DNA from: Chryseobacterium aquaeductus
Lineage (GTDB): Bacteria; Bacteroidota; Bacteroidia; Flavobacteriales; Weeksellaceae
Assembly (NCBI RefSeq): GCF_905175375.1
Contig: NZ_CAJIMS010000001.1
Location: 992,001-1,056,000 of the forward strand
DNA: 64,000 nucleotides
Direction: 5' to 3'
Program-made: the position numbers and the translations under genes
In this document: one piece after another, positions 16,503 through 41,597 of the stretch
Numbering within the stretch: the first letter of the stretch is position 1
Layout: every line of letters starts with the position of its first letter
Notes under the pieces: model-generated
What the model saw: the letters and a program-made list of their open reading frames with translations, nothing else
Databases searched by the model: none
What the model was told of the DNA's origin: nothing

Positions 16503-16530
16503 CATATTGATGTAATTATTTGGTTACAAT

Positions 16531-35359: not shown

Positions 35360-36508
35360 ATGAAAATAGGCATACTTTGCTACCCAACCTACGGAGGAAG
35401 CGGAATCGTGGCAACAGAACTCGGGATGTCTCTCGCCAACAAAGGCTATGAGGTACACTTCATCAGTTCGGCACTTCCTGCGAGATTAGATATTACCAAT
35501 CCCAATATTTTCTTTCATAAAGTCAATGTGCAGACCTACCCGCTCTTCCAGTATCAGCCTTATGATATTGCGTTGAGTTCGATGATCTACCGAGTTGTGA
35601 ATCTTTATAAATTAGATCTGCTTCATGCGCACTATGCCATTCCTTACGCTTATGCGGCTTTTACGGCAAAGCAAATGCTGAAAGAAGATAATAACGATAT
35701 ACCGTTGGTAACTACGCTTCACGGGACAGACATTACGTTGGTGGGGCAACATCCTAGTTACAAGCACGCAGTAGAATTTTCCATCAATCAATCAGATGCG
35801 ATTACTTCGGTTTCGGAAAGTCTTAAAAAAGATACGCTTCAGTTTTTCCGTATCAAAAAAGAAATTCAGGTCATCACCAATTTTATCGACAATACTGAAT
35901 TTGAAGACCTCAACGAGTGCCAGAGAACACAGTTTGCAAGTGCAGACGAGAAAATTCTGATCCACGTTTCCAACTTAAGACCGGTAAAGCGTGTGGAGGA
36001 AGTTCTTCAGATTTTCAAAAATGTAGAGAAAAAAGTAAAATCTAAACTCATCATCATCGGCGAAGGTCCGGAAATGGAAAAGGTGAATCAGTTTTTGGAA
36101 GAAAACCCTGAATTGATTTCTAAAATCCGTCTTTTGGGAAAAGTAAACGACTTGTACAGAATCTTAAGACTTTCAGATGTATTTTTACTTCCTTCTGAGC
36201 AGGAAAGTTTCGGATTGGCAGCTCTGGAAGCAATGGCAGCCAACACTCCCGTTATCAGTTCCAACGCAGGTGGTATCCCGGAAGTAAACATTCAGGGTGA
36301 AACCGGATTTTTAGCTGAAATCGGAAATGTAGAAGCGATGAGCAATTACACGATTAAACTTCTCAGCAATGATGAATTGCTGGCTCAGATGAAGATTAAT
36401 GCCAAAGAACAGGCGATAAAATTTGATTTGAAAAACATTCTTCCTATTTATGAGGAAATGTATAAAACTACCATTGCAAATTTTAAGAAGGAGCCTGCAA
36501 AGGCTTAA
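35360..36508 (+). CDS. bshA: N-acetyl-alpha-D-glucosaminyl L-malate synthase
   Basis: Joins GlcNAc from UDP-GlcNAc to L-malate, first step of bacillithiol synthesis. 382 residues, GT-B fold: N-terminal MKIGILCYPTYGGSGIVATELG is the BshA signature; the donor domain has HVSNLRPVKRVEEVL, GEGPEME and the E-x7-E motif ESFGLAALEAM. BshA length and start match the family. No other bacillithiol gene is nearby. A strong terminator follows at 36533. Confidence 0.95.
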   Translation: MKIGILCYPTYGGSGIVATELGMSLANKGYEVHFISSALPARLDITNPNIFFHKVNVQTYPLFQYQPYDIALSSMIYRVVNLYKLDLLHAHYAIPYAYAAFTAKQMLKEDNNDIPLVTTLHGTDITLVGQHPSYKHAVEFSINQSDAITSVSESLKKDTLQFFRIKKEIQVITNFIDNTEFEDLNECQRTQFASADEKILIHVSNLRPVKRVEEVLQIFKNVEKKVKSKLIIIGEGPEMEKVNQFLEENPELISKIRLLGKVNDLYRILRLSDVFLLPSEQESFGLAALEAMAANTPVISSNAGGIPEVNIQGETGFLAEIGNVEAMSNYTIKLLSNDELLAQMKINAKEQAIKFDLKNILPIYEEMYKTTIANFKKEPAKA

Positions 36509-36532
36509 AACTTTTTTACAATATAAATTAAG

Positions 36533-36559
36533 AATCAGGGCTAGTTGCTCTGATTTTTT
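36533..36559 (+). terminator. Terminator of bshA
   Basis: AATCAGGGC (36533-36541) pairs with GCTCTGATT (36547-36555, one G-T pair) around TAGTT and ends in a six-T run. Confidence 0.8.
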
Positions 36560-36562
36560 GTT

Positions 36563-36796
36563 TTGAATCCAAATTCTCCCGAAAGCTTTTTGCTAACTTG
36601 CGTTAATCTTTCGGAACTTCCCGAAAACGTGTTGCAGGGGTGTTACAAGGTTTCGGGCGTTCCCGAAAGTTTCTTACTAGGGTGCGACAGACTTTACCGA
36701 TTACCGGAAAGTGTGCTGCGAGGGTGCGAGAAGCTTTCCGGAAATTTGATAATACTTTTAAAAGCTCCACTTTTCAGAAAATTGCATTGTAGATAA
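36563..36796 (+). CDS. Open frame made of a 14-residue tandem repeat; may be a non-coding repeat
   Basis: A 42-bp unit is repeated four times at 36578-36745 (unit starts 36578, 36620, 36662, 36704). In one frame this gives PES-F-LL-TC / PEN-V-LQ-GC / PES-F-LL-GC / PES-V-LR-GC followed by x-x-L-S-x-L, a 14-residue repeat with a fixed Cys. Opening is TTG only, with no clear ribosome site, and the gene would begin inside the bshA terminator. The unit edges (TTTCGGGCG-TTCCCGAAAG) are themselves palindromic and the GC content is much above the neighbourhood. Coding status is open. Confidence 0.35.
   Translation: MNPNSPESFLLTCVNLSELPENVLQGCYKVSGVPESFLLGCDRLYRLPESVLRGCEKLSGNLIILLKAPLFRKLHCR
36578..36745. 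repeat. 42-bp GC-rich degenerate tandem repeat, four units
   Basis: Four adjoining units with exact 42-bp phase and a conserved CCCGAAA/CCGGAAA start. Junctions between units form short hairpins (CCCGAAA against TTTCGGG). No further copy was noticed elsewhere in the window. Confidence 0.7.
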
Positions 36797-36952
36797 GCGG
36801 TTTTGTTGTAAAATGAATTTTGGAAATATAGTAATTACGTTGAATAGATTAGCTCAAAGTCACAGACTTTGCACAGCAGGTTTTTTTTCTTTTTTGTTTG
36901 AATTAATTGAAAATTGATTATAACAAATCAATCGTTTTCGGAAGACTTTTTT

Positions 36953-36960
36953 TATATTTG
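36953..36960 (+). promoter_or_regulatory. -7 element upstream of the AAA ATPase cassette
   Basis: TATATTTG fits TAnnTTTG; the -33 is weak. Transcription would start near 36967, upstream of the core-like site at 36998, so the promoter would lie outside the cassette-like unit. Confidence 0.35.
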
Positions 36961-36997
36961 ATTATAGTTTGGATTGACGCAATGCGTGAAGACAAAA

Positions 36998-37012
36998 GTT
37001 AGCAGTAACTTT
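36998..37012 (+). repeat. Core-like site before the first cassette-like unit
   Basis: GTTAGCAGTAACTTT. It matches, with one mismatch, the reverse complement of the left end of the palindrome at 39235, and its GTTAGCAG corresponds to GTTGGCAG (39364-39371) and GTTTGCGG (40232-40239) at the right ends of the two complete palindromes. I found no convincing left arm for a full palindrome here. The rest of 36797-37045 holds nothing else I can name. Confidence 0.45.
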
Positions 37013-37045
37013 ACCTCACGAAATCTTATAAATCATACAGATACT

Positions 37046-39226
37046 ATGAATAAAATTAATATTGATTTTGAAAATTGTTTTGGTATTGGAAAACTAAATC
37101 ACGAATTTAAGTTTGAAGATTTGGATTCTAATACTTTTCTAATTTATGCACCAAATGGAACAATGAAAACTTCTTTTGCGAGAACGTTTGATTTAGTTTC
37201 TAAAAATGATATTAAAAATATTCCTCGTGATAGAATTTATACTGATAAAGCTTCAAAGTATGAAATCCTAGTTGATGATTTACCAATAAATCAACAAAAC
37301 ATACTTGTCTTAAATGCAGAAGATAATAATTTTGATGCAACAAATAAAATTAGCAACTTTTTAGCTAGTAAAGATTTAAAAAAACAATATGACGATATAT
37401 ATTCTGAATTAAATGTTTTAAAAAATGAATTTTTAAAAAAATTAAAAATTGTTTCTCAAAGTTCTGACTGCGAAGGAGAAATTATAAATAGTTTTTCTGA
37501 AAATTCAACTATTTCTTTTTTTGAAGTATTATTAAATGTAGTCGGAAATCTAACAGATAAGTTTGTAAAATATGATTTTAAATACAATGAAATATTTGAC
37601 AAAAAAGATAATGTAAAAAAATTTCTAGAAAAAAACAAAGCTATATTGGAACAATATATTACTGATTATAACGCATTATTGTCAAGCTCTACTTTTTTCA
37701 AACAAACAGAAAACAATTCTTTTGGAACGTATCAAGCAACTGAAATTTTAAAATCTATTGAAGATAATTCATATTTTGATGCAGGTCATAAATTTGTATT
37801 AGAAGATGGTACAGAAATAAATAATTCAAGTTTATTAAAAGAACTAGTTGAATCTGAAATAAGTAACATTATAAATGATGAAAAACTTAAACAAGCCTTT
37901 GATAAAGTCGATAAAGCTATTGGTTCAAATTTAGAACTTCGTGCATTTAAAAAAGTAATAGAAAAAGATAATTTATTACTTGTAGAATTAAAAGATTATG
38001 AAGGTTTTCAAAAGAAAATTTGGGTTAATTATCTATCAGAAATTAAAAACGAAACAGAAGTATTAGCCGAATTATACAAAACCAAAAAAATAGAATTAGA
38101 AAAGATAATTGAAGAGGCAAAAAAAGAGTTTGCTTTATGGGAAAAGATAATTAAAACATTTAATTCAAGATTTTATGTTCCTTTCAAAGTCATTTTGATT
38201 AATCAAGATGATATAATTTTAAAACAAGAAACAGCAAATTTGGAATTTGAATATATTGACAATAATGAAATTCCTGTGCGTCAAAAGAAAGAAAACTTAT
38301 TATCAATTTTAAGTAAAGGCGAACAAAGAGCATATTTTATTTTGCAATTTTTATTTGAAATAGAATCTAGAAAATCAAGTGAAGAAAAAAACATCATTAT
38401 TTTTGATGATATTGCCGATTCATTTGACTACAAGAATAAGTTTGCTATTATTGAGTATATTAAGGAATTACATTTATCAAACGAATTCAGAATGATAGTT
38501 CTGACACATAATTTTGATTTTTATAGAACAATAGCTTCAAGATTAAGTTTAAAAAGACAAGTTGTTTATATGACAACAAAATCAAATGAAAAAGTAATTA
38601 ATTTAAAAAATGGTCAATACAGAAATGATGTTTTTGTATATTTTATTGATAACTATAGAAATCCTAAAATATTTATTAGTTTGATAGCCTTTGTCAGAAA
38701 CATTATTGAATATACTGAATCTAAAGAATGTGAAGATTATTCAAAACTAACAAGTTGTTTACATCTAAAAAATGATTCAATTACTTTATTAGTAAAAGAC
38801 ATTTTTGATATTTATAAGTCTAGATTGATAAAACTTTCAGATAAAACAATTGAATTTGAAAATGAAAATTTATTAAACTTTATTATTTCTACAGCTAATT
38901 CTATATGTGCAGAAGAAAATATTAATGAAATAAATCTAGAGAATAAAATCAGTCTTGCAATTGCTACAAGACTAAAAACAGAAGAATATTTAATAAAAAA
39001 GTTGCCAGAAGTAAATTTGGATGAAATCACATCCAATCAAACAAGTGAATTATTCATAAAATATAAAGCTAAATTTCCAGAAAGTGATGCAATAGAAATA
39101 TTGGAAAATGTAAATTTAATGACTCCTGAAAACATTCACATTAACGCTTTTATGTACGAACCATTAATTGATATGTCTGTATTTCATTTAAAAGATTTAT
39201 ATCTAGGAATTTGTGAGTTAAATTAA
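37046..39226 (+). CDS. Stand-alone AAA/ABC-type ATPase (AAA_13/RloC-like), candidate defence gene
   Basis: 726 residues from the ATG at 37046 (an upstream ATG-less extension to 36974 crosses the core-like site). Walker A at 34-43 is APNGTMKTS, a variant with M-K-T in place of G-K-S/T; a long coiled-coil insert (about 100-400) rich in Lys/Glu/Asn; signature LSKGEQRAYFILQFLFEIE near 421; Walker B IIIFDDIADSFD near 450; H-loop VLTHNFDF near 487; then a helical C-terminal domain of about 220 residues with no motif I know. The pattern is that of RloC/PrrC-like and SMC-like ATPases found in phage-defence loci, but no nuclease motif is visible. Far more AT-rich than its neighbours, single gene, bounded by repeats: likely transferred. 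Confidence 0.85.
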   Translation: MNKINIDFENCFGIGKLNHEFKFEDLDSNTFLIYAPNGTMKTSFARTFDLVSKNDIKNIPRDRIYTDKASKYEILVDDLPINQQNILVLNAEDNNFDATNKISNFLASKDLKKQYDDIYSELNVLKNEFLKKLKIVSQSSDCEGEIINSFSENSTISFFEVLLNVVGNLTDKFVKYDFKYNEIFDKKDNVKKFLEKNKAILEQYITDYNALLSSSTFFKQTENNSFGTYQATEILKSIEDNSYFDAGHKFVLEDGTEINNSSLLKELVESEISNIINDEKLKQAFDKVDKAIGSNLELRAFKKVIEKDNLLLVELKDYEGFQKKIWVNYLSEIKNETEVLAELYKTKKIELEKIIEEAKKEFALWEKIIKTFNSRFYVPFKVILINQDDIILKQETANLEFEYIDNNEIPVRQKKENLLSILSKGEQRAYFILQFLFEIESRKSSEEKNIIIFDDIADSFDYKNKFAIIEYIKELHLSNEFRMIVLTHNFDFYRTIASRLSLKRQVVYMTTKSNEKVINLKNGQYRNDVFVYFIDNYRNPKIFISLIAFVRNIIEYTESKECEDYSKLTSCLHLKNDSITLLVKDIFDIYKSRLIKLSDKTIEFENENLLNFIISTANSICAEENINEINLENKISLAIATRLKTEEYLIKKLPEVNLDEITSNQTSELFIKYKAKFPESDAIEILENVNLMTPENIHINAFMYEPLIDMSVFHLKDLYLGICELN

Positions 39227-39234
39227 AAAAGCTA

Positions 39235-39371
39235 CTGCTAACAGCGGTTTTAAGAAATTGGGGTTTTTGGGCTTAATTTAAAGTCTGTTTTGTACTTTTG
39301 AAGTTCGGTGTTTAATCGAAAGTTTCGGGCTTACAAATCCCCAACTTCTTAAAGCCGCGAAACGTTGGCAG
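39235..39371. repeat. Cassette-boundary palindrome P1 (attC-like architecture)
   Basis: 137 bp. Outer arms CTGCTAAC (39235-39242) and GTTGGCAG (39364-39371), then an asymmetric bulge (1 nt left, 5 nt right), then an inner stem of about 20 bp: GCGGTTTTAAGAA-A-TTGGGG against CCCCAA-CTTCTTAAAGCCGC, and a variable terminal part. It begins 9 nt after the stop codon of the ATPase gene. Its right arm aligns base by base with that of P2 (40208-40239). Confidence 0.7.
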
Positions 39372-39486
39372 AAATTTCATCCAATCTCCCGCCATTAAAT
39401 AAAAAAATGGAATTCTGTCAATAGTCGGAAATACCGAAACAGCGACTATAAATTTTTCTGAAAGTAGGAAATTATAAACTTTGACT

Positions 39487-39663
39487 ATGAAATTTTTTAT
39501 TGCAATTATCGGATACTTTGTTGGAGTTCTACTGACTATAATAATATTATCAATGTTTTCAGCTGGAACTGACTCTAAAATGCCGAATTCTTTTATTCCT
39601 GCAAATATTGGTGGAATAATATTGGCAATTATTGGTTACAATTATTCAAAAAACAAAAAATAA
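39487..39663 (+). CDS. Small two-helix membrane protein
   Basis: 58 residues from the ATG at 39487. Two hydrophobic helices (FFIAIIGYFVGVLLTIIIL and IGGIILAIIGYNY) joined by a short polar loop, with a Lys-rich C-terminus in the cytosol. No family recognised. Its stop overlaps the start of the next gene by one base (TAATG), so translation is coupled. Both lie inside the unit bounded by palindromes P1 and P2. A short hairpin ATAGTCG/CGACTAT (39421-39449) precedes it. Confidence 0.6.
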   Translation: MKFFIAIIGYFVGVLLTIIILSMFSAGTDSKMPNSFIPANIGGIILAIIGYNYSKNKK

Positions 39664-40100
39664 TGGCTGTTTTATTTTATCAAATAGGAATTTTTATAGC
39701 AATTCAAGTTGCTTCGATGTTTGGAAAAAATAGCAGAAATACTGCAATTGTATTAATCTCAATTTTTACAATTCTTCAAGTTTTTGTGTCTTGGTTGCTA
39801 ATTCTTCAGTTCATTACAATCTTAGTTTCTTACTGGATTTCAAATGAATGGTTTTTTGGGGAAGAAAAAAATAAAAAACCTGTCAAAAAGCTAAAAAAAA
39901 TTAGTTATAGTTTTAGAGATGAAAATGGAGGAAGAGGAATTATGGAAATAGATTTAGATGATCCTAATTTAGATCCTAAAATTAAAAGCAAAGCTTTACT
40001 TCAAAAAGAAATAAGAGAAACATCAATTGAAAATTACAGAAATGACACTGAATACAAAAAAGCATTGGATGATGTAATGAAAAAAATGACGGGTAAATAA
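39663..40100 (+). CDS. Membrane-anchored protein of unknown function in the cassette-like unit
   Basis: 145 residues: two N-terminal transmembrane helices (about 4-20 and 27-60), then a charged cytosolic tail with KKPVKKLKKISYS, an acidic patch MEIDLDDPNLDPKIK and a helical end with KALDDVMKKMTGK. I do not recognise it. It is coupled to the preceding small protein and ends 8 nt before palindrome P2. The pair could be a small membrane-acting system (toxin/immunity or defence effector); that is speculation from size, topology and context. Confidence 0.65.
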   Translation: MAVLFYQIGIFIAIQVASMFGKNSRNTAIVLISIFTILQVFVSWLLILQFITILVSYWISNEWFFGEEKNKKPVKKLKKISYSFRDENGGRGIMEIDLDDPNLDPKIKSKALLQKEIRETSIENYRNDTEYKKALDDVMKKMTGK

Positions 40101-40108
40101 AAAAACTT

Positions 40109-40239
40109 CTGCCAAGGGTTTGCCAAAAGCGGGGCTGAAGTTCTTCGATTGAGCATTTCTGCAAGGTTCAAGAGCAGTAATTCTATTGAACTTTTGTGCT
40201 AAAAATCCCCGCCTTCGGCAAGCCCCGAACCGTTTGCGG
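40109..40239. repeat. Cassette-boundary palindrome P2 (attC-like architecture)
   Basis: 131 bp. Outer arms CTGCCAAG (40109-40116) and GTTTGCGG (40232-40239), an asymmetric internal loop, then TTTGCCAAAAGCGGGG against CCCCGCCTTCGGCAAG (13 of 16 pairs, the rest G-T). The terminal part is unlike P1. Right arms of P1 and P2 share the order AAATCCCC-nn-CTTC-nnn-AA-n-CC-n-CGAA-n-CGTT-n-GC-n-G, showing common descent. Confidence 0.7.
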
Positions 40240-40322
40240 TTTTTAATAAACAAACAATCTAAGCAATTACTTTTTTACAACTCCAAATTTTTCCTAAATT
40301 AGTGGCAACACAAAACCCCACG

Positions 40323-41597
40323 ATGAACGAAAAATTATTACAATATCTTTGGAACTTCAAAGTATTTACCAATTTCAACTTTAAAGATTTAGACGGAAAT
40401 GTTATCGAAATTCTAGATTTCGGAAAATGGAACAAAGATTCCGGGCCGGATTTTCTGATGGCAAAAATCAAAATCAATAACATTATTTTAGCAGGAAATA
40501 TCGAACTCCATGTAAAATCTTCCGACTGGATTTTTCATCAGCATTCTAAAGATCCCAATTACGATAATATTATTTTGCACGTAGTTTTTCAAAATGATGC
40601 AGACATTGATGAGCTCCACACAAAGAATATTCCTACGTTGGAACTGAAAAATCACATTGATGTAAGTGTTTTCGGAAAATATGAAAAACTTCTGAATGAC
40701 AGCCAGTTTATTCCGTGTGAAGATCTTTTTAATCCAAATAAAATTCCTGTTCATTTTTACGAAGAAAGCTTATTACAAAAACTCGAAGAGAAATCTTCAG
40801 AAATAGAAAGCGATCTAGAAATTCACAAAAACAATTACGAAGCCGTTTTATTTCACAGCCTTGCCTATTCTTTTGGGTTGAAAGTAAATGCTTACCTCTT
40901 CAAACAAATTGCTGAAAGTATAGATTTTACTGTTGTCAATAAAATCAGACAAAATAAACCTCAGCTCGAAGCCTTGCTGTTCGGAATCTCCGGCTGGCTG
41001 GAAAAACCTGAAGATGAATCGATGAAAATATGGAAAAGAGAATTTGATTTTATGCGTGCAAAATACAATATATCTGACTTGCTGATTCGTCCAAAATTTC
41101 TAAGATTGCGCCCACCCAATTTTCCGACCATCCGATTATCGCAGTTGGCAAATCTTTATCATCAGCATCAAAATTTATTTTCAAAAATCATAAATGCGAA
41201 AAATTCTGGTGAATTGATGGAGATCTTTAAAGATATAAAAGCTTCAGAGTATTGGGATAATCATTTTAATTTTGGGAAGATTTCTTCAATTAATCATCCA
41301 AAAATTTTAACTAAAGAATTCATCGATCTCATCATTCTCAATACCGTTTTACCCCTAAAATACAGCTATCACAAATATCACAACGAAGAAATCACCGATG
41401 AAATATTGAGATTTTACAAAGAACTTTCCGCTGAGAAAAACTCGATTATTGATGGTTGGAAAAATTTAAGTTTAAAAATGGAAAATGCATTGCAGACACA
41501 AAGTTTGATTTACCACTACAAAAATTATTGCACTCCAAAAAATTGCTTAAATTGCAGCATCGGATTTAAAATTTTAAAAGAAAATAATCATGTTTGA
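40323..41597 (+). CDS. DUF2851 family protein
   Basis: 424 residues from the ATG at 40323 (an upstream GTG frame adds 7). DUF2851 signature: EKLLQYLWNFKVF, SGPDFLMAKIKINN, GNIELHVKSSDW, and C-terminal CTPKNCLNCSIG with several Cys. Cytosolic, function unknown, widespread in Bacteroidetes and next to a PspC gene as here, which it overlaps by 8 nt. It is the first ordinary core-genome gene after the cassette-like region. Confidence 0.9.
   Translation: MNEKLLQYLWNFKVFTNFNFKDLDGNVIEILDFGKWNKDSGPDFLMAKIKINNIILAGNIELHVKSSDWIFHQHSKDPNYDNIILHVVFQNDADIDELHTKNIPTLELKNHIDVSVFGKYEKLLNDSQFIPCEDLFNPNKIPVHFYEESLLQKLEEKSSEIESDLEIHKNNYEAVLFHSLAYSFGLKVNAYLFKQIAESIDFTVVNKIRQNKPQLEALLFGISGWLEKPEDESMKIWKREFDFMRAKYNISDLLIRPKFLRLRPPNFPTIRLSQLANLYHQHQNLFSKIINAKNSGELMEIFKDIKASEYWDNHFNFGKISSINHPKILTKEFIDLIILNTVLPLKYSYHKYHNEEITDEILRFYKELSAEKNSIIDGWKNLSLKMENALQTQSLIYHYKNYCTPKNCLNCSIGFKILKENNHV

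Follow-up and report, generated by a model that had tools for sequence, protein, structure and literature searches.

A probable integron-like cassette array in Chryseobacterium aquaeductus and its family of hairpin sites in Bacteroidota

Introduction

The systems closest to the locus treated here are integrons, in which a recombinase gene stands beside an attI site followed by an array of cassettes, each of about one gene with a folded site at its 3' end. Canonical attC sites carry the core consensus GTTRRRY / RYYYAAC. A complete-genome survey counts, in the portion drawn on here, one complete integron in Bacteroidetes proper, that of Salinibacter ruber (PMC9024848). We analysed 64,000 nucleotides of the Chryseobacterium aquaeductus genome (contig NZ_CAJIMS010000001.1, positions 992,001 to 1,056,000; hereafter the window), where two long palindromes, P1 and P2, stand behind unrelated genes. 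A preliminary description of the window had read them as the sites of a gene-cassette array, and this reading is supported by the many copies recovered with a covariance model, their arrangement in arrays, the co-directed genes upstream of them and a co-occurring family of tyrosine recombinases. The window locus is very probably a two-cassette array, lacking a recombinase of its own, of an integron-like system of Bacteroidota.

Apart from this layout, the system shares with integrons a left arm (R'') that matches the start of its own cassette, a GTT core, co-oriented cassettes and the occurrence of arrays without an integrase. It differs in its long hairpins (about 136 or 197 nt), in a 15-nt R arm with a fixed mismatch, and in the presence of several attI-like sites per genome, for which we propose service in trans. 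Two hallmarks of integrons were looked for specifically. The insertion (I2 helix) of the integron integrase IntI, presented in the relevant part of PMC4792948 as the solution for folded sites, is absent from the enzyme found here, and the GTTRRRY core occurs in just 15 of 212 GTT-bearing sites. For these reasons we do not class the system as a canonical integron; it would very probably work like one.

Clusters of attC sites lacking an integrase (CALIN) are likewise comparable, since the window array has sites and no integrase, but the array has kept an attI-like site and a recombinase is encoded elsewhere on the chromosome. The recombinase resembles XerA, XerC and XerD in size and in having no insertion, with an XerA-like best NCBIfam model and, for the modelled structure of a relative, XerA as the top match; it differs from them in its linkage to cassette arrays, and XerC/D-like sequences group separately in an unrooted tree. 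An aph(3')-IVb insertion reported in Riemerella (PMC13148043) involves the same kind of site, and its insert length fits one predicted cassette; section 11 of that paper, to which our comparison is limited, contains no recombinase, attI, site family or distribution. The tet(X3) contexts of Acinetobacter, with a tyrosine recombinase and the ISCR2-type element ISVsa3, have a relative of the recombinase and cassette parts standing in line, with an incomplete hairpin and ISVsa3 alongside.

Cassette boundaries and the circular form

On the forward strand, site P1 (39228..39378; R'' at 39228-39242, then the hairpin, with the crossover GTT at 39364) and site P2 (40102..40246; crossover GTT at 40232, where the array ends) contain the palindromes at the reported places (39235-39371 and 40109-40239), align over their length and belong to one family of attC-like hairpins. 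The palindromes themselves begin 8 nt behind the stop codons of unrelated genes, a 726-aa ATPase (stop at 39226) and the second of two membrane proteins (end at 40100), which agrees with the close spacing noted before. Cassette 1 starts at 36998..37012 with a crossover core GTT and 12 nt complementary to the R'' of P1; GTTAGCAG is located at 36998. Cassette 2 (39365..40232) extends from the GTT at 39364 to that at 40232, the exact base inside GTT being ambiguous.

In an integron array, the R' of a site is part of the cassette that follows, and R'' meets its true partner in the circular cassette alone. The window follows this rule. The reverse complement of the P1 left arm (39228-39242) fits 36998 at 14/14 positions outside position 11, against 10 for its own right arm, and the runner-up place in a partner search of 36501-39200 scores 10. 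The P2 left arm (40102-40116) fits the cassette start at 39364 at 12/14 positions, against 7/14 for its own right arm, in a register that is the best of three tried and with an inverse core AAG instead of AAC.

To examine the rule across the family, we used sites matching covariance model R1, which was built from six sites (P1, P2 and four related sites). The 239 sites, 235 after removal of a duplicate locus, give 164 consecutive pairs, or inter-site units; L081 (from the same genome as L067) and antisense and overlapping matches are excluded from the count. In the 132 usable pairs (32 were dropped for want of a GTT or AAC anchor), the reverse complement of R'' agreed at 6.17 of the 8 scored positions with the start of the cassette it closes, compared to 3.66 for its own R' and 3.08 for a random R', and the highest of 2000 permutations reached 3.61. 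The cassette start was the better partner in 111 pairs, the worse in 7 and tied in 14. Over 130 pairs, with positions 1-3 serving as anchor, complementarity covers positions 4-15 bar 11 and stops at 16. The R arm is accordingly 15 nt long and constantly mismatched at position 11. R1, used to choose the sites, does not score the match between R'' and cassette start. At the level of sequence, a left arm that complements its own cassette start is the signature of units that circularise.

The units themselves have a median length of 918 bp. Their longest open reading frame (ORF) is co-directed with the site in 150/164 cases, five units have no ORF of at least 50 aa, and the distance from gene stop to R'' end has a median of 17 nt.

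Structure and distribution of the sites

Compared with dinucleotide shuffles, P1 and P2 fold on either strand to a degree equalled by none or 1 of 200 (z -2.64 to -3.62), and to this extent the hairpins previously drawn for them stand. The arms covary across the family: 70% of L-stem positions are paired within a site, compared to 50% when arms are swapped (173 distinct arm pairs), in a register that is the best of those tried and among sites picked by a model that scores pairing. A.C mismatches are frequent, at L-stem positions 12 (115/173) and 9 (75/173) and at R-arm position 11 (89 of 111 well-matched pairs). Because an A.C on the top strand becomes a T.G on the other, the two strands form different hairpins. 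The fold thus has the features of the attC type, namely an asymmetric spacer (about 3 versus 7 nt), a covarying L stem, and frequent A.C mismatches where attC has bulged bases. Sites of a longer class (about 197 nt) were observed on resistance plasmids (L014 4038-4235, L016 5230-5429, L018 4594-4793) and in the long array of G104 (L070).

A GTT lies within 3 nt of its expected place in 212/235 sites, and is missing there in 23/235. The cores of the window (36998, 39364 and 40232) had been described as GTT-n-GC-R-G and not GTTRRRY; the second half of this holds, while GTTR, found in 208/212, is the better description of the first. The bare core is of no use as evidence, as GTTNGCRG occurs 7 times in the window with 6.2 expected, which is chance level.

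The covariance search that had been suggested returned many copies in genus and phylum, often in one-strand arrays behind unrelated genes. A right-arm pattern was found in 4/60 same-genus genomes, the own genome included (reversed-pattern control, 0). R1, which scores P1 at 127 bits and P2 at 120 bits with both included in the model, matched 97/173 same-genus genomes (own included) at E<=0.01 and 179/395 genomes of the phylum, in 98/170 genera, at E<=0.001. The large scans used stricter filters and scored few candidates per genome, and their counts are lower bounds. Examples of such arrays have twelve sites behind a recombinase in Flavobacterium difficile (L141), eleven in L060 (G011) and ten in L061 (G131). 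The small controls consisted of the canonical integron of R388 and ten other recombinase loci; on 33 kb of R388, R1 had no match at E<=10.

By plain similarity, a DNA search of whole genomes with P1 alone returned, besides P1, 19 short matches with E-values no better than 0.25. P2 has a 94% copy in G095, without the cassette genes of the window beside it; another, at 91.8%, stands 3' of a monooxygenase gene on a plasmid of Adhaeribacter.

attI-like sites

Upstream of 67 first or isolated sites, a partner of R'' matching at 12 or more of 14 positions was found in 39, with controls of 1 (complement or reverse) and 3 (shuffles); at 13 or more, it was found in 32, with controls of 0 and 0. Directly before many first-cassette starts lies a shared palindromic motif, in Chryseobacterium of the form TTGGATTGACGCAATGCGTAAATTTGGAA, then GTT. 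First cassettes adjoining recombinases have this same motif directly upstream, and Flavobacterium-type platforms have a different palindrome before the GTT. A longer form of the motif gave 72 matches in 43/173 genomes (reversed control, 0). Among the 60 that were fetched, GTT comes first at the same offset in 47 (48 counting one with GTT twice), and a recombinase lies within the fetched stretch in 12/60, eight of them of the family described below and four a 34% relative. A site follows downstream in 37 of the 54 stretches with at least 3.5 kb on that side.

The attI-like site of the window (36969..36997, + strand; TTGGATTGACGCAATGCGTGAAGACAAAA, with an exact 17-mer at 36971-36987) stands immediately 5' of the first cassette, and is too divergent for the longer form, hence outside the 72. 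The preliminary description had a core standing alone at 36998; the core is there, but it is preceded by this site and is not bare. The presence of the attI-like site also ruled out the idea that the locus is a plain secondary-site insertion.

The Bacteroidota -7 promoter consensus is TAnnTTTG, and such words are found at many attI-like sites. A second type of motif, to which the window copy belongs, lies behind the word TATATTTG, found at the same place before L216 and L231, for example. In the window this word (36953..36960, + strand) matches the consensus and is a candidate platform promoter, its function being predicted.

The linked recombinase

The recombinase serving the window had been expected to be new or located elsewhere. 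A candidate does lie elsewhere in the same genome, a tyrosine recombinase at G000:C1:2339457-2340281 (9457-10281 of L057), 1.3 Mb from the window and divergent from a small multidrug resistance (SMR) transporter cassette that bears an R1 site. As for novelty, its family is large, and some members are already named 'site-specific tyrosine recombinase/integron integrase' by NCBI. The own genome has one recombinase of the family at E<=1e-50 and at least five attI-like sites (window, L057, L058, L059, L216), and on these grounds we propose that the enzyme acts in trans.

Linkage was assessed from both sides. Of 20 fetched array regions, eight hold a family recombinase beside attI and the first cassette, each divergent from and upstream of that cassette (L057, L060, L062, where the contig end cuts it, L063, with one in-frame stop, L067, L072, L075 and L076); the window copy consists of attI and cassettes with no recombinase gene. 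Starting instead from 80 recombinase loci fetched by homology, R1 sites at E<=0.01 were present in 38. In a second scan, 39 of the 40 loci with any match have a site that points away from the recombinase; it lies downstream in 25 and upstream in 14, within 1.5 kb in 21 and within 2.5 kb in 30. L082 and L147 also carry one oppositely oriented site. In ten XerC/D-like or other tyrosine-recombinase loci, with shorter flanks, R1 matched nothing at E<=0.01; a single match had E 0.032.

Co-occurrence with a tyrosine recombinase, another check that had been proposed, was found at both ranks: in the genus, sites are present in 24/24 genomes with the recombinase and 73/149 without, and in the phylum in 82/96 with and 97/299 without (p 1.7e-20).

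Two stretches that align with IntI4 are separated by 20 residues in the protein and by 63 in IntI4, IntI1 being likewise longer in this region. Its best NCBIfam model is XerA-like (240 bits), ahead of integrase_gron (203), and TIGR02249 scores 202.6 bits, below its cut-off of 265; the C-terminus reads SPLD, as in IntI1. The predicted structure of a relative, P0001 (predicted local distance difference test, pLDDT, 82; predicted template modelling score, pTM, 0.58), matched XerA (5hxy) best and then IntI4 (2a3v), with TM about 0.55. In an unrooted tree, the family, IntI1-like and XerC/D-like rows form three groups, with family monophyly at 55/64 and the eight XerC/D-like rows alone at 100/99, the IntI rows in our trees being all near IntI1. 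Outgroup rows, on long branches and with one too-short row dropped, did not settle the root, and the family was monophyletic in 22% of bootstrap trees. A grouping of the recombinase with IntI was accordingly withdrawn.

In G098 (L071, L244-L247), a more distant tyrosine recombinase (~34% identity) was observed beside sites, and is possibly a second enzyme of the system.

Resistance plasmids and a published insertion

A plasmid search with P2 gave similar sequences on 19 records from Riemerella, Empedobacter, Myroides, Bacteroides, Sphingobacterium, Adhaeribacter and Proteus. Plasmids of Riemerella, Empedobacter and Proteus (L014, L016, L017, L018) were examined with R1 and have its sites next to resistance genes; for those of Myroides, Bacteroides and Sphingobacterium the finding is sequence similarity to P2. 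On the Riemerella plasmid L014, 9 of 12 R1 sites stand closely behind a gene or gene pair: aadS, tet(X), lnu(I), a relE-helix-turn-helix (HTH) pair, a class D beta-lactamase, tet(X), estT, a phosphotransferase and aph.

One such unit has been seen to move. According to the section of PMC13148043 (2026) considered here, aph(3')-IVb is integrated into the R. anatipestifer chromosome by a homology-independent route, the insert being made up of 27 bp, the gene and 140 bp; its authors saw an attC-like fold, proposed site-specific recombination and left the mechanism open. On L014 the crossover GTTs at 16529 and 17485 are 956 bp apart, equal to 27 + 789 + 140, in a comparison across strains (L014 is RCAD0416 and the donor of that section RCAD1101). 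Among the open-licence papers of PubMed Central (PMC), as far as their searched passages go, only PMC13148043 remarks on an attC-like fold, and does so for a single site of this kind.

Copies of the relE-HTH cassette at 98% are present in G707, in a large array at both ends of the record (18 and 11 sites, partly duplicated), with a family-like recombinase elsewhere in that genome. A direct duplication of several kb was observed inside this array (L312 2011-9279 and L313 11098-18366).

In Acinetobacter (L274, L275) a related recombinase (45.8% identical to P0211 over 85%) is followed by a palindrome, then by tet(X3) preceded by its cassette start GTTATGTGCCATTTT, and last by the left portion of a hairpin. 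The hairpin is incomplete, with R1 E-values of 0.44 in L274 and 0.0055, and cut, in L275. On both plasmids the recombinase upstream of tet(X3) adjoins ISVsa3, and the arrangement looks like a platform of this system.

Group IIC introns sit at attC sites. Group II intron reverse transcriptase genes were observed on two site-bearing plasmids (L015 1654-2970, L276 14522-15838).

Proposed mechanism and alternatives

The explanation that we favour, and which as a whole has a high probability, is an integron-like cassette system in which an XerA/IntI-like tyrosine recombinase acts in trans at G^TT. Each cassette would be one gene unit with a 3' hairpin site. The recombinase, without the IntI insertion, would come from another platform on the same chromosome to serve the window; by recombining hairpin sites at G^TT it would excise circles, restoring the 15-nt R arm, and a circle would then be inserted by recombination at G^TT with an attI-like site or with another hairpin. 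The attI-like sites would be the entry points of cassettes and, putatively, their promoters. The folded bottom strand is the presumed substrate, and its T.G wobbles could have the strand-marking role that extrahelical bases play in attC.

Several observations weigh against this explanation. The outer arms previously drawn for P2 are unpaired in its best fold on both strands. The longest ORF is opposite to the site in 9/164 units, 7/132 pairs contradict the circle rule, and the pairs are partly non-independent, as some cassettes recur and R1, with which the sites were picked, itself scores pairing. The rest of the 20 fetched array regions hold no family recombinase, 42 of the 80 recombinase loci show no site in the flank examined (many contigs are short), and among 395 phylum genomes 97 have sites with no recombinase at threshold and 14 the reverse. 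The G707 array is not beside its recombinase, there being no site in 20 kb of L314, and at L057, the platform of the own genome, the first cassette starts with ATT and not GTT. Other enzymes, such as the 34% relative in G098 or XerCD, could act on the sites, and the open-licence PMC passages searched yielded no link between this recombinase and the sites. Finally, the comparison of strains for clean gain or loss went only part of the way: the flanking genes are adjacent in 14/17 other same-genus loci and the cassette genes are present within 1.5 kb in 0/17, so that relatives without them between conserved neighbours do exist, but no base-exact empty site was found among same-genus relatives, whose intergenic stretch has diverged.

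The alternative that survives best, though we consider it unlikely, is that of an ordinary integron, with drifted attC sites and an integrase that secondarily lost its insertion; the system would then be a divergent branch of a known family and no separate lineage. The platform layout and the SPLD terminus shared with IntI1 fit this, and the trees do not separate the family from IntI. On the other hand, NCBIfam favours the XerA-like model over integrase_gron, R1 finds nothing on R388, and cores, R arm and mismatches are consistently different.

It is rather improbable that the host XerC/XerD act on the hairpins, as they do for CTX-type elements, with the linked recombinase being incidental. 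Their use of a folded phage site is known (as given in the cited part of PMC4792948), and they could account for the 97 genomes with sites and no recombinase, but it is the other recombinase that co-occurs with the sites and adjoins them in a set direction, and the ten XerC/D-like or other recombinase genes had no such site nearby at E<=0.01.

That the palindromes have nothing to do with gene movement, being terminators, repeats similar to repetitive extragenic palindromes (REP) or miniature inverted-repeat transposable elements (MITE), or RNA elements, is very improbable. They do fold and stand close behind stop codons. However, such elements are not required to have an R'' matching the far end of their own unit, nor do they explain the attI-like sites or the ratio of about one gene unit a site; an Rfam search of 36500-41000 gave nothing at E<=1, and thus no Rfam family at P1 or P2 (a scan of L057 gave two unrelated matches elsewhere in that region); and precise movement of one such unit is published in the cited section of PMC13148043. 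Equally remote are single-strand transposons of the IS200/IS605 kind moved by a Y1 transposase, which would share the palindromes at both ends and single-strand folding, since the linked enzyme found is a tyrosine recombinase (no search was aimed at Y1 transposases) and the arrays have one common left end with many right ends.

Returning to the integron-like system, a broader proposal, which taken jointly we regard as evenly balanced, is that Bacteroidota have their own phylum-wide type of integron, missed by current tools. It would use folded single-strand sites without the extra domain of IntI, choose the strand by A.C mismatches and the 15-nt R arm, and let one enzyme serve several attI in trans. 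On Bacteroidota plasmids it, rather than canonical integrons, would have built the clusters of tet(X), OXA, lnu, estT and aph, and it would also have brought tet(X3) into Acinetobacter. It may represent, still alive today, the Xer-like ancestor from which integron integrases arose.

The system is widely distributed and medically relevant, its sites in 179/395 genomes and 98/170 genera contrasting with the single Salinibacter ruber integron of the survey portion cited above (PMC9024848). If the explanation is true, these bacteria have a main route, overlooked until now, for acquiring genes of defence, toxin-antitoxin systems and resistance, and the homology-free gene entry asked about in the quoted section of PMC13148043 gains a candidate mechanism. 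An enzyme without the extra domain would let the evolution of the use of folded single strands by integrases be tested, and with it the view of folded-site recognition expressed in that part of PMC4792948. R1 itself is a site model for tracking resistance cassettes.

Gene content and surroundings of the window array

The AT-rich block of the window has a glycosyltransferase gene (35360-36508) on its left and a DUF2851 gene (40323-41597) on its right. The gene of cassette 1 (37046..39226, + strand) encodes the 726-aa ATPase, a candidate phage-defence protein that matches PADLOC PDC-S46 with 820 bits over residues 1-725; its Pfam match, SMC_N, is below the cut-off of that family. Four homologues (58-61% aa identity) occur elsewhere, with no site detected within 1.5 kb, and therefore do not demonstrate that the cassette 1 gene moves. 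Cassette 2 contains ORFs for a small membrane protein of 58 aa (39487..39663, + strand) and a second membrane protein of 145 aa (39663..40100, + strand), for neither of which family searches, Pfam and PADLOC among them, gave a match above cut-off.

Between the glycosyltransferase gene and the attI-like site, at 36590-36760, are short repeated palindromic blocks of higher GC content, absent in the two closest relatives compared. Elsewhere in the own genome, at G000:C1 1690702-1692029 and 1708072-1709399 (L022, L023, L025, L026), there are two equal-scoring tandem pairs of other tyrosine recombinases, ~17 kb apart.

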